Assembly (NCBI RefSeq): GCF_003030305.1 | Contig: NZ_CP023676.1 | Coordinates: 2,108,001 to 2,172,000 of the forward strand | From: Cutibacterium acnes | GTDB taxonomy: Bacteria > Actinomycetota > Actinomycetes > Propionibacteriales > Propionibacteriaceae | Length of the DNA: 64,000 bases | Reading direction: 5' to 3' | Part shown: in pieces, positions 4,405 to 8,989 of the stretch | How positions within the stretch are numbered: position 1 is the first letter of the stretch | How the letters are laid out: each line of letters begins with the position of its first letter | Position numbers and translations under genes: made by a program | Notes under the pieces: generated by a model | Told to the model about the DNA's origin: nothing | The model's input: the letters and a program-made list of their open reading frames with translations, nothing else | Databases searched by the model: none

Positions 4405-5667
4405 TCAGTCCTCCACGTGCACGTCGAAGGATTCAATGACGGTGTTGGCCAACAGCTCAGAGGCCACCTGACGGATCTCGTCGAGACGATCTTCCAAACC
4501 CTCACCAGTGATCTCGAAACGCTTACCCTGGCGCACCGTCAAGCCGTCATGGCCAAGCCGAGCGAGCACCGACGTGATGGCCTTGCCCTGGGGATCCAAG
4601 ATTTCGGGTTTCGGCATGACCTCCACCACTACACGTGACATAGCCCCGATCTTATCGGCACTACAGGACTCCGACTCGCCAGGAACGTCGAGGGCCACCG
4701 GTGCAGCGTCCCCGGACTCCCCGGAAACGCTATCCCGCGAAGCCCTCGCGTGCTTGTCATCGTCGGCCTCATTGTGAGGCGTCTCATCGCTGACCTCATC
4801 AGACACGTGCCCGCCAGTCAGACGTGCCCAGGCCTCCTCATAACGCCGACTGGTGGCCTTGACGACCTCCTCTGGGAGGGCAGGCGGCTCCTGGTCACTA
4901 GCGCGATCCCAACCGGACTCATTCGTGAGCCAATCGCGCACATATTGCTTATCGAAGGAATCTGCCCCCTTGCCGGGCTGCCACGTCTCAGCGTCCCAGA
5001 ATCGCGAAGAATCAGGGGTAAGCACCTCGTCAGCTAGCACGATGGTGCCGTCGACACGACGCCCGAATTCAAGCTTGGTATCGGCCAGGAGGATGCCTCG
5101 CTTCCGAGCGATCTCCTCTGCACGCTGGTAGACCCGCAGCGAAAGGTCATGCAGCTGCGCTGCAACATCGGGACCGACGAGTTCTACCAGGCGTAGATAG
5201 TCGATGTTCTCGTCATGTTCTCCCTGCGGGGCCTTAATTGCCGGGGTGAAAATGGGCTCTTCGAGCCGGGACCCATTCTGCAGCCCCTCGGGAAGGCGGA
5301 TTCCGCACACGGCCTGGTTGCGCTGATATTCGGCCCACCCTGAACCGGTGAGGTAGCCCCGCACGACGCATTCGACCGGGAACATGTCGAGTTCCTCAAC
5401 GACCATGGCGCGCCCTGCGACCTCGGCGGGGACATCCACGCTCACGAGATGGTTATCGACGATGTCGGCCAATTGGTCGAACCACCACAAGGACATATTC
5501 GTCAAGATGGCTCCCTTGCCGGGAACATCGGGGGTCAGGACGTGGTCGTAGGCGCTAATCCGGTCCGTAGCGACCATAAGCAGGCGGCCCGGCTGATCGG
5601 GAAGACGATAGAGGCGTCGGACCTTGCCCTCAGCCAGCAATGGAAGATTGAGGTGCGAAGTGACCAT
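4405..5667 (-). CDS. purC: SAICAR synthetase PurC fused to PurS
   Basis: 420 residues in one uninterrupted frame. Residues 1 to about 290 are PurC ([13 protein letters not shown], the ATP site, and [14 protein letters not shown]), which condenses CAIR with aspartate. An acidic, low-complexity linker of about 50 residues follows. Residues 343-420 are a complete PurS ([19 protein letters not shown] onward), the small subunit bridging PurQ and PurL. The Met at the PurS boundary (codon at 4639-4641) has only a weak ribosome site, so a bifunctional fusion is favoured, although internal initiation making free PurS cannot be excluded. It is followed directly by purQ, so PurS and PurQ are encoded side by side as expected for the FGAM synthase complex. 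Confidence 0.9.
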
Positions 5668-5729: not shown

Positions 5730-5776
5730 ATAGTTATTGGCTATAGATAATATGTTTAGTGATAGCCTTGATCTAT
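5730..5776 (+). promoter_or_regulatory. OxyR-type operator of ahpC
   Basis: Two exact ATAG-N7-CTAT elements are present (5730-5744 and 5762-5776) with 17 bp between them. OxyR contacts four ATAG-like quarter sites. The extra helical turn between the two pairs (17 instead of 7 bp) is the arrangement described for reduced E. coli OxyR. An AT-rich -10-like TAATAT lies at 5748-5753. The site is 27 bp upstream of the ahpC start and also faces purC, and an OxyR gene is 2.3 kb downstream. Confidence 0.8.
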
Positions 5777-5802
5777 CACATCGTCGACGAGAGAGGACAC
5801 CC

Positions 5803-6366
5803 ATGAGTCTCATCAACACCAAGATCCTTCCATTCAAGGCCAACGCTTTCCGCAACGGGGACTTCATCGAGGTCTCCGATTCCGACATCAACGGCAAGTG
5901 GGCCGTGTTCTTCTTTTACCCCGGTGACTTCACCTTCGTCTGCCCCACCGAGTTGGGCGACCTCGCCGACCACTATGAGGAACTGCAGGCCATGGGGGTC
6001 GAGGTGTTCTCGGTGTCCACCGATTCGCACTTCGTGCACAAAGCGTGGCATGCCGACTCCGACACCGTCGGCAAGGTGAACTACACGATGATCGGCGACC
6101 CGAACCTGCAGCTGACCCGCAACTTCGACGTCGAGCGCGAGGGTGCCGGACAGGCCGATCGCGCCACCTTCCTCGTCGACCCTGACGGCATCATTCAGTT
6201 CTACGAGCTCACCGCTGAAGGAATTGGACGTAATGCCACCGAGCTAGTCCGCAAGGTTAAGGCCGCCCAATACATCTACACCCACCCAGGCGAGGTGTGC
6301 CCCGCCAAGTGGGAAGAAGGCGATGAGACCCTCGCCCCGTCGATCGACCTCGTCGGCAAGATTTGA
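5803..6366 (+). CDS. ahpC: Alkyl hydroperoxide reductase peroxiredoxin AhpC
   Basis: 187 residues from ATG 5803, preceded by GAGAGG; this gives the usual [11 protein letters not shown] start. It is a 2-Cys peroxiredoxin that reduces H2O2 and organic peroxides in the cytoplasm. Peroxidatic Cys47 lies in FTFVCPTE and resolving Cys166 in GEVCPAKW. It is followed by its reductase ahpF and by oxyR, and preceded by an OxyR operator, so it is likely peroxide-induced. Confidence 0.97.
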
Positions 6367-6387
6367 GTTCCGACCCGAGCATCTGCT

Positions 6388-6407
6388 GCAGGGGCGCTCG
6401 TCCCTGC
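6388..6407 (+). other. Small hairpin between ahpC and ahpF
   Basis: A 6-bp inverted repeat (GCAGGG / CCCTGC, 8-nt loop) lies in the 97-bp gap. It could attenuate readthrough so that AhpC is made in excess over AhpF. No T-tract is present. Confidence 0.4.
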
Positions 6408-6463
6408 GGCGGATCCCCAGACCGGTACCCTTCCCTCCCCCTCCTCACCCCTTCAGGAGAACC

Positions 6464-8038
6464 ATGCTTGATAACGCCCTGACCACTCAGCTCAAGACCT
6501 ACCTCGAGATGGTGCGCGAGCCGATCGTCCTGGTGCCTTCCCCATACCGGGGTGACGACGCCGCAAAATCGTCAAAGTCGGCTCACATGGACGAGCTTTT
6601 ATCCGAGATCGCCGCCTTGTCTGACAAAGTGAGCGTCGGTAAGCCCGTCGACAATGAGCGCACCCCCTCCTTTGCCATCACCCGCCCCGGTAGCCCCATC
6701 GACATCCGCTTTGCGGGCCTGCCGATGGGCCACGAATTCACCTCACTCGTGCTGGCCCTGCTGCAGGTAGGTGGACACCCCGTCAAGGAGGAGCAGTCCC
6801 TCATCGACGCCGTGCGCGCGGTCAAGGGTGAGCACCACTTCGTCACCTACATGTCACTAACCTGCCAAAATTGCCCGACGGTAGTGCAGGACCTCAACGC
6901 AATGGCCGTCCTCAACCCGAATATTCACCACACCGCCGTTGACGGTGGCACCCACACCGATGAGGTAGAAGCCAAAGGAATCGCCTCGGTGCCGGCCATC
7001 TACCTGGACGGCGAGGACTGGGGCTCCGGGCGCATGGACATGGCCGAAATCCTCGAGCGTCTCGACGCCGACGCCGCCCAGGGAGCCAAGGAAGACCTCT
7101 CGCAGCGCGACCCCTACGACGTGCTCGTCGTAGGGGCGGGTCCCGCCGGTGCCGCGGCCGCCGTGTACGCGGCTCGTAAGGGCATTCGCACCGCCATGGT
7201 CGGGTCTCGAATCGGCGGCCAGGTACTCGATACCGAGGCCATCGACAACCTCATCTCGGTGCCGCACACCACCGGTCCGCGTCTGGCCGACGCCCTCCGC
7301 AGCCACGTCAACGACTACAACATTGACGTTATTGAGCGTCAGACCGCCAGCGCCATAGAGACCACCGGCGGTATGACCACCGTGCATCTGACCGACGGCG
7401 ACCTGCGGGCGCGCTCAGTCATCGTGGCCACCGGTGCCCGCTGGCGCAACCTTGGCGTGCCTGGCGAGAAGGAATACCGCACCAAGGGTGTGACCTACTG
7501 CCCGCACTGCGATGGCCCGCTATTCACAGGCAAAAAGGTGGCCGTCGTCGGAGGTGGAAACTCCGGCATTGAGGCCGCTATCGACCTTGCCGGCGTCGTC
7601 GACCACGTCACCGTCGTGGAGTTCCTCGACGCCCTCAAGGCTGACGACGTACTACTACGCACCCTGAACTCACTGCCGAACGTCGACGTCATCACCTCGG
7701 CCCGCACCACCCAGATCCTCGGCGACGGATCCAAGGTGACCGGTCTGGAGTACGAGGACCGCACCAGCGGCGACGTTAAGACCATCGAGCTAGCAGGTGT
7801 GTTTGTCCAAATCGGTCTGCTGCCCAACACCGAATGGCTCGAAGGTGCCCTGGAGCGCAACCAGCGGGGAGAAATCGTCATCGACGAGCGTGGCACCACC
7901 TCAGCCCCCGGAATCTTCGCCGCCGGTGACTGCACCACTCAGCCGTACAAGCAGATCATCATCTCGATGGGGGCCGGCGCCACCGCTGCTCTAGGCGCCT
8001 TCGACCACCTCATCCGTCAAAATCCGACACAGAACTGA
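6464..8038 (+). CDS. ahpF: Alkyl hydroperoxide reductase flavoprotein AhpF
   Basis: 524 residues from ATG 6464, chosen for the AGGAGA ribosome site 3 bp upstream; the family is about 520. It transfers electrons from NADH through FAD to AhpC. The N-terminal double-thioredoxin domain carries the CQNC centre (Cys134, Cys137). The thioredoxin-reductase-like part has an FAD site ([18 protein letters not shown]), a redox centre CPHCDGPLF (Cys346, Cys349), an NAD site ([14 protein letters not shown]) and a C-terminal FAD motif ([10 protein letters not shown]). All cysteines are in place. Confidence 0.97.
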
Positions 8039-8044
8039 GGCCGT

Positions 8045-8989
8045 GTGAACCTTCATGATCTGCGGTATTTCGTCGCCCTGGCCGAAGAACACCACTTCGG
8101 CCGGGCTGCGGCGTCATGCGGTGTCAGCCAGCCCACCCTCTCAACTCAAATCCACCGGCTCGAGAACGAGCTCGGCGTGGTGCTGGCCGTGAGGGTGGGA
8201 CGACGCATCGAGATCACCCCAGTGGGGGAACGCATCGCCCAAGCTGCCCGTGACATGCTGGTGCTATCCGACGACATCCGGACCATGGCGCGGGAGGAAG
8301 CCGACCGGATGACCCTCCAGCTGAGGGTCGGGGTATTCCCCACCTTAGGGCCGTTCGTGTTGCCTCAGGTGATCGCCCGATGTGACCAGCACGAGCCTGG
8401 CGTGAACATCCATATCGTCGAGAAGCGCACGGCAGAGCTGTTGGAGGCAATCCGCAACGGACAGTTAGACGTCGCCGCAGTGGCAGCCCCCGTTAATGAT
8501 GACTCTTTGGTGACTATTCCCGTTTTTCGGGAGGAGTTCTTGCTCGTGACGGGGGCTGACGATGAGTTGGCCCGTGAGGAACGACCAATCAATCCGCACG
8601 ACGTTCCCACCGAAGGGCTCATCCTCATGTCGGAGGGACACTGTCTAAGAGACCAGGTGCTTGAGGTGTGCAGCCCGTCTCATCCGCTGCCTCCCGACAC
8701 CCTCACGGCGGGATCCCTCGAGACGCTCCGCGAACTCGTATCGGTGGGCGCCGGTCGAACCCTCATGCCGCGCAGTGCGATCTCGGCACCACTTCATGCG
8801 GACCCGCGCATCGTGGTGCGGGAGTTCACCCACCCCAGACCCCACCGCGACATCGTGGTGGCTGGCAGACCGGCCACAATGCACCGTCCGGCGGTGCAGA
8901 CCCTGACCACCATCCTGCGGCAGCTACCAGGTGACGTCGTCGAGCCTCTCGGCGTTGCCGGAGCATCGTTGTGCTCTCACGGGATGTGA
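8045..8989 (+). CDS. oxyR: Peroxide-sensing LysR-type regulator OxyR
   Basis: 314 residues from GTG 8045, 6 bp after ahpF, so probably co-transcribed. The N-terminal LysR helix-turn-helix (MNLHDLRYFVALAEEHHFG) is followed by a regulatory domain. The sensor motif GHCLRDQVLEVC places Cys200 and Cys209 with the same spacing as E. coli Cys199/Cys208, which form the activating disulfide. The perfect operator upstream of ahpC supports this identity over a generic LysR. Confidence 0.93.
   Translation: MNLHDLRYFVALAEEHHFGRAAASCGVSQPTLSTQIHRLENELGVVLAVRVGRRIEITPVGERIAQAARDMLVLSDDIRTMAREEADRMTLQLRVGVFPTLGPFVLPQVIARCDQHEPGVNIHIVEKRTAELLEAIRNGQLDVAAVAAPVNDDSLVTIPVFREEFLLVTGADDELAREERPINPHDVPTEGLILMSEGHCLRDQVLEVCSPSHPLPPDTLTAGSLETLRELVSVGAGRTLMPRSAISAPLHADPRIVVREFTHPRPHRDIVVAGRPATMHRPAVQTLTTILRQLPGDVVEPLGVAGASLCSHGM

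Follow-up and report, generated by a model that had tools for sequence, protein, structure and literature searches.

The window, a stretch of 64,000 nucleotides of the Cutibacterium acnes genome, contains the genes ahpC, ahpF and oxyR in this order, preceded by a divergently oriented purine-synthesis gene that, from its sequence, we take to be purC-like and to code for a SAICAR synthetase (Table 1). Upstream of ahpC, two elements of the form ATAG-N7-CTAT, hereafter D2 (distal) and D3 (proximal), are separated by a spacer of 17 bp. Both are exact, as claimed in the original prediction, which had been made from the sequence alone; oxyR, announced there at around 2.3 kb downstream and with the cysteines Cys200 and Cys209, is situated at a distance of 2.27 kb and encodes both of them. 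In the intergenic region between ahpC and ahpF there is, moreover, a 15-bp hairpin (window positions 6381-6414, forward strand), which is retained with paired stem changes in the other Cutibacterium species examined and is not followed by a T-run; it may stabilise the 3' end of the ahpC mRNA or lower read-through.

Table 1. Features of the ahpC-ahpF-oxyR locus, with positions counted from the first base of the window.
Feature	Position	Strand	Evidence
Divergent purine-synthesis gene, upstream neighbour	4405-5667	-	reading of the sequence
Candidate distal OxyR dimer element D2, ATAGTTATTGGCTAT, ATAG-N7-CTAT	5730-5744	+	sequence; kept in 7 of 9 Cutibacterium species
-35-like TATTGG within D2	5735-5740	+	sequence comparison
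17-bp spacer, sequence unconserved	5745-5761	+	mean identity 64% vs 100% in the boxes (7 Cutibacterium species)
Candidate proximal OxyR dimer element D3, ATAGCCTTGATCTAT; GTGATAG-N7-CTATCAC with flanks	5762-5776	+	sequence
Predicted -10 box TAGCCT inside D3 (TAnnnT is the published P. acnes consensus, PMC3848588)	5763-5768	+	TAnnnT present in all 27 relatives compared
Predicted transcription start inside D3	5774-5775	+	placed from the -10 box centred at -9
Ribosome-binding site AGAGAGGA	5790-5797	+	sequence
ahpC, peroxiredoxin, ATG at 5803	5803-6366	+	TIGR03137 AhpC, 328 bits, cut-off 272
ahpF, AhpC reductase	6464-8038	+	TIGR03140 AhpF, 832 bits
oxyR, GTG start, 314 aa, Cys200/Cys209, recognition helix SQPTLS	8045-8989	+	profile and structure matches, alignment

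The whole genome of 2,495,001 bases contains nine exact ATAG-N7-CTAT elements. In the genome-wide scan for pairs of them that the original prediction had proposed, the ahpC pair was the only exact one: throughout the 2.495 Mb, no other two exact elements are found within 30 bp of each other. The chance expectation of one such element in the window is 0.10 (two elements occurred in 1 of 100 shuffles), and around 3e-5 exact pairs at one given spacing are expected in the whole genome (9*9/2.495e6). When up to three mismatches were allowed, one further N17 pair was found genome-wide, a weak match with three mismatches, which equals the control count. The seven remaining exact elements stand singly (G000:C1, positions 770058, 1070522, 1496100, 1639167, 1909206, 2017441 and 2018694).

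Concerning the regulator, the best PDB match of the protein is OxyR 4x6g (178.8 bits), and it possesses the HTH and the regulatory domain of the LysR family. The redox cysteines (C199 and C208 in E. coli) are present as C200 and C209 in GHCLRDQVLEVC, and the recognition helix SQPTLS is identical to that of E. coli OxyR. The NCBIfam equivalog model for OxyR, NF008361, is the best-scoring model, yet its 217 bits lie below the cut-off of 329 bits, which is the curators' annotation threshold and not a biochemical feature. The predicted identity as OxyR is consistent with the cysteines, the recognition helix, the structure matches and the gene context. Since this OxyR carries the recognition helix of E. 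coli, the exact match of the elements, considered striking for an actinobacterium in the original prediction, is less surprising. No experiments on Cutibacterium OxyR were found in the literature searched. Among the relatives, the OxyR of L056, L057, L058 and L061 (genera g12 and g28), whose gene lies in the same ahpC-ahpF-oxyR cluster, is devoid of the resolving cysteine (C208 in E. coli) and retains C199 only, and the OxyR of Deinococcus likewise keeps only C199. In L080 (genome G077, 86% complete), oxyR and ahpF are each found in two aligned pieces, probably through sequencing errors.

A close OxyR is present in 28 of the 147 genomes of the family, and in every carrier read the gene order ahpC-ahpF-oxyR adjoins such a site. 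Within Cutibacterium, both elements are exact in seven of nine species, with all 16 box bases invariant, such that the outer arms (ATAG of D2 and CTAT of D3) are as invariant as the inner ones; the two remaining species possess one degraded arm each. The spacer measures 17 bp in two of the seven species and 16 bp in five. In a scan that allowed any gap from 1 to 25, with a matrix trained on the seven species, the best gap was 16 or 17 in all nine Cutibacterium (seven of them being the training species) and, outside the genus, in 10 of 18 genomes, and a gap of 7 was best, weakly, in one genome; the genomes are mutually related and these counts are thus not independent. In genome G104 the far CTAT arm is lost. 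Beside D2, the compact N7 register offers a second dimer a match of just 0-5 of 8.

In the reduced state, the OxyR of E. coli makes contact with two pairs of major grooves that are separated by one turn, and the oxidised form is more compact (PMC2881104; for the oxidised form also PMC2225504). The arrangement of two ATAG-N7-CTAT pairs found here, with N17 in the window and N16/17 in the genus and its relatives, corresponds to the extended, reduced type of tetramer site and not to the compact, oxidised type of four half-sites with N7 between the pairs. The comparison supports the reading of 5730-5776 as a putative tetramer site for OxyR that has the geometry of the reduced type and is conserved beyond the genus. 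The geometry claimed in the original prediction thereby holds for the N16/17 layout, but not for 17 bp as an exact value, 16 bp being commoner in the genus.

Twelve relatives exhibit an additional element, D1, with 6-8 of 8 matches. They belong to the genera g22, g14, g10, g19 and g2 and to g37, a genus of another family (f7). D1 is situated at a fixed place around 66 bp upstream of D3 (near -66) and is followed by conserved half-site-like blocks at steps of about 11 bp; its compact partner shows a moderate match (4-6 of 8). Judged from the sequences, this position and rhythm are those expected of an activating OxyR. D1 is absent from Cutibacterium, g4, g12 and g28: in their 17 genomes, its place matches at 2-5 of 8, with a chance level of about 3.

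The original prediction overlooked that the pair of elements overlies the predicted core promoter. Vegetative promoters of P. acnes are characterised by the motifs GnTTnG, centred at -36, and TAnnnT, centred at -9 (PMC3848588). In the Cutibacterium comparison, D2 holds a -35-like CATTGR and D3 a TAGnnT; the centres of CATTGR and TAnnnT are 27 bp apart in the species with a 16-bp spacer and 28 bp apart in the window, which matches the published positions. Each of the 27 genomes compared has TAnnnT at the proximal ATAG arm, and the TTG within the distal element is largely conserved. All Cutibacterium and g4 genomes have a T at position 7 of the proximal element, but it is rare in the distal one; it therefore reads as promoter and not as operator. 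Together, D2 and D3 span around -45 to +2 relative to the start, which is itself a prediction, and overlap -35-like and -10-like matches that agree with the published consensus. A scan with the canonical TTGACA/TATAAT motifs found no promoter upstream of ahpC, whereas the P. acnes consensus does match; in the conserved stretch of 26 nt between D3 and the ATG, no AT-rich -10 was found. This overlap with the predicted core promoter favours a steric repression by reduced OxyR that would be relieved on oxidation. Of the repression or poising by the reduced form proposed originally, repression appears to be the likeliest function, and it is better argued from the position over the -35 and -10 motifs and the start predicted from them.

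We consider it fairly probable that the 47-bp element serves ahpC-ahpF-oxyR as the operator for OxyR, at which the reduced tetramer would repress ahpC until peroxide relieves the repression. The two dimers of the reduced tetramer would bind one ATAG-N7-CTAT each, two helical turns apart, covering the -35, the -10 and the start of ahpC and thus blocking RNA polymerase. Peroxide would oxidise Cys200, which would form a disulphide with Cys209; the oxidised tetramer, with altered dimer spacing, would no longer fit the layout of 16-17 bp and would free the -10 region, such that ahpC is derepressed, and oxyR as well if it is co-transcribed. If the distal dimer stayed in place, a second dimer in the compact register would lie on sequence without a matching site (0-5 of 8). 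Release on oxidation is, to judge by C. diphtheriae, not a general rule in actinobacteria, because repression by OxyR is reported there to be independent of H2O2 (PMC3306370).

It is conceivable, but unlikely, that OxyR acts here as a dual regulator, which represses in its reduced form and, once oxidised, stays bound, shifts one dimer and recruits RNA polymerase as E. coli-type OxyR does. Both redox cysteines are conserved, and in Shewanella OxyR is reported to regulate the same target, ahpCF, in both redox states (PMC6416212), which would be possible in Cutibacterium, too. However, a compact tetramer anchored on D2 would still cover the -10, no box matches the compact register, and D1, which as an upstream element would suit activation, is missing. 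Unlike in Shewanella, neither a compact nor an upstream element is left in Cutibacterium for an activating state.

The conservation of 16-17 bp could instead reflect the promoter spacer, being kept by the -35 and -10 boxes within the two elements and not by an OxyR tetramer. The usual promoter spacer is 17 +/- 1 bp and the distal TTG is largely conserved, but we regard this as quite improbable: the outer arms are invariant in the seven species although the promoter does not need them, and therefore the operator is not explained by promoter spacing alone. Moreover, in most genomes of g12, g22, g14 and others, TAnnnT is situated 2 bp further downstream, and N17 is nevertheless still the best or a good gap. 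The constraints of promoter spacing and of the tetramer may act together. That OxyR is an activator here, with the true -10 elsewhere and the TAnnnT in D3 a coincidence, seems very doubtful. Oxidised E. coli-type OxyR usually activates ahpC (PMC2225504); against this stand the 26-nt stretch devoid of an AT-rich -10, the presence of TAnnnT in each of the genomes compared and the T at position 7, which marks the proximal and not the distal element.

Similar pairs exist elsewhere. In a collection-wide scan for exact N16/17 pairs, chance matches and matches at LysR genes dominate among the matches listed, and in 12 of 80 loci among these the pair lies 0-120 bp upstream of the start of a LysR-family gene. 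As a sign of reduced OxyR, the geometry is weaker than originally claimed, for N16/17 pairs also precede unrelated LysR genes and 17 bp is the sigma-A spacer as well. The geometry of 16-17 bp is not specific to OxyR and is best called the extended layout of LysR tetramers, one that is also used by reduced OxyR. That the element belongs to another LysR-family regulator, as those 12 loci upstream of unrelated LysR genes might suggest, is nonetheless hardly credible: its boxes represent the half-site of OxyR, the OxyR encoded here has the same recognition helix as its E. coli counterpart, and every carrier read has ahpC, ahpF and oxyR in one cluster. L159, L118, L128, L166, L164, L110 and others (several of them Bacillota etc.) exhibit an exact ATAG-N7-CTAT-N16-ATAG-N7-CTAT around 16-33 bp before LysR-family genes, some with a common spacer pattern such as CGTTTTTATAG; these pairs probably serve another LysR subfamily for its autoregulation. 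When exact pairs were sought across the phylum, only N6, N8 and N14 pairs and one large palindrome came up outside the family, and at the two of these loci that were read (L083 and L085) no obvious peroxide genes were found. The catalase gene katA was rejected as a target in Cutibacterium, no pair being situated upstream of it.

Compared with the OxyR sites of E. coli (oxyR-oxyS), the half-site ATAG-N7-CTAT, the recognition helix and the two cysteines are identical in Cutibacterium, and the spacing of N17 reproduces the geometry of the reduced form. There are, however, differences: the oxyRS region of E. coli has its best pair at N7 and not at N16/17, and the Cutibacterium site, unlike those of E. 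coli, overlies the predicted -10 of its target gene. The nearest tested precedent is OxyR of C. diphtheriae, which represses cat with a footprint of 46 bp over the -10 hexamer and the start site (PMC3306370); it is likewise an actinobacterial OxyR with a site over -10 and start, the Cutibacterium side of this comparison being predicted. The target gene is a different one, the recognition helix differs (SQPSLSQAL in C. glutamicum), and no exact ATAG-N7-CTAT pair is found at Corynebacterium cat. The same pair was accordingly rejected there, where degenerate inner arms around 16 bp apart exist in some species and no clear spacing peak is seen. Upstream of cat in the Corynebacterium loci L223, L226, L231, L233 and L236, repeated CTAT and GATA arms lie around 16 bp apart, possibly a degenerate form of the known repressor site. 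Like LysR-family tetramer sites, which comprise a recognition and an activation site with a sliding dimer, the Cutibacterium operator would consist of two sites for dimers, spaced by two to three helical turns and placed either before the promoter or over it; unlike LysR sites in general, both are near-perfectly symmetric, and the second lies over the predicted -10 and start, not over the -35.

The genera with and without D1 also differ in other respects. The CTATC arm of D3 matches at 4.7 of 5 bases in the genera without D1 (Cutibacterium and three more) vs 3.1 of 5 in those with it, and the relatives with D1 possess an E. coli-like OxyR, its identity to E. coli OxyR being 47-49% in the D1-carrying genera of the family vs 34-38% in Cutibacterium and g4. 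The OxyR proteins of the genera without D1 form one group in the tree, with moderate support (86/87, 90% of bootstraps). From this tree and the presence of D1 in another family, we infer a loss of D1 rather than two separate gains elsewhere. In g12 and g28, two of the genera without D1, the resolving cysteine of OxyR is gone, which fits a repressor, because the C208A OxyR of Neisseria meningitidis represses and cannot activate (PMC2881104). The loss of D1 and the stronger -10 element suggest a shift from activation towards derepression in the Cutibacterium lineage. Tentatively, OxyR might in one actinobacterial lineage have turned from an upstream-bound activator of ahpC into a promoter-occluding repressor that uses the extended reduced-state geometry only, a change that would be recorded as the loss of D1, the stronger -10 element and, on one branch, the disappearance of the resolving cysteine, which the activated state requires.

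The footprints of OxyR in its compact (oxidised) and its extended (reduced) form were defined on few E. coli sites. A family of promoters with the extended arrangement only, beside relatives that carry D1, would allow a direct test of the role of each geometry, and the operator proposed here predicts how the main peroxidase is controlled in a dominant bacterium of the human skin.
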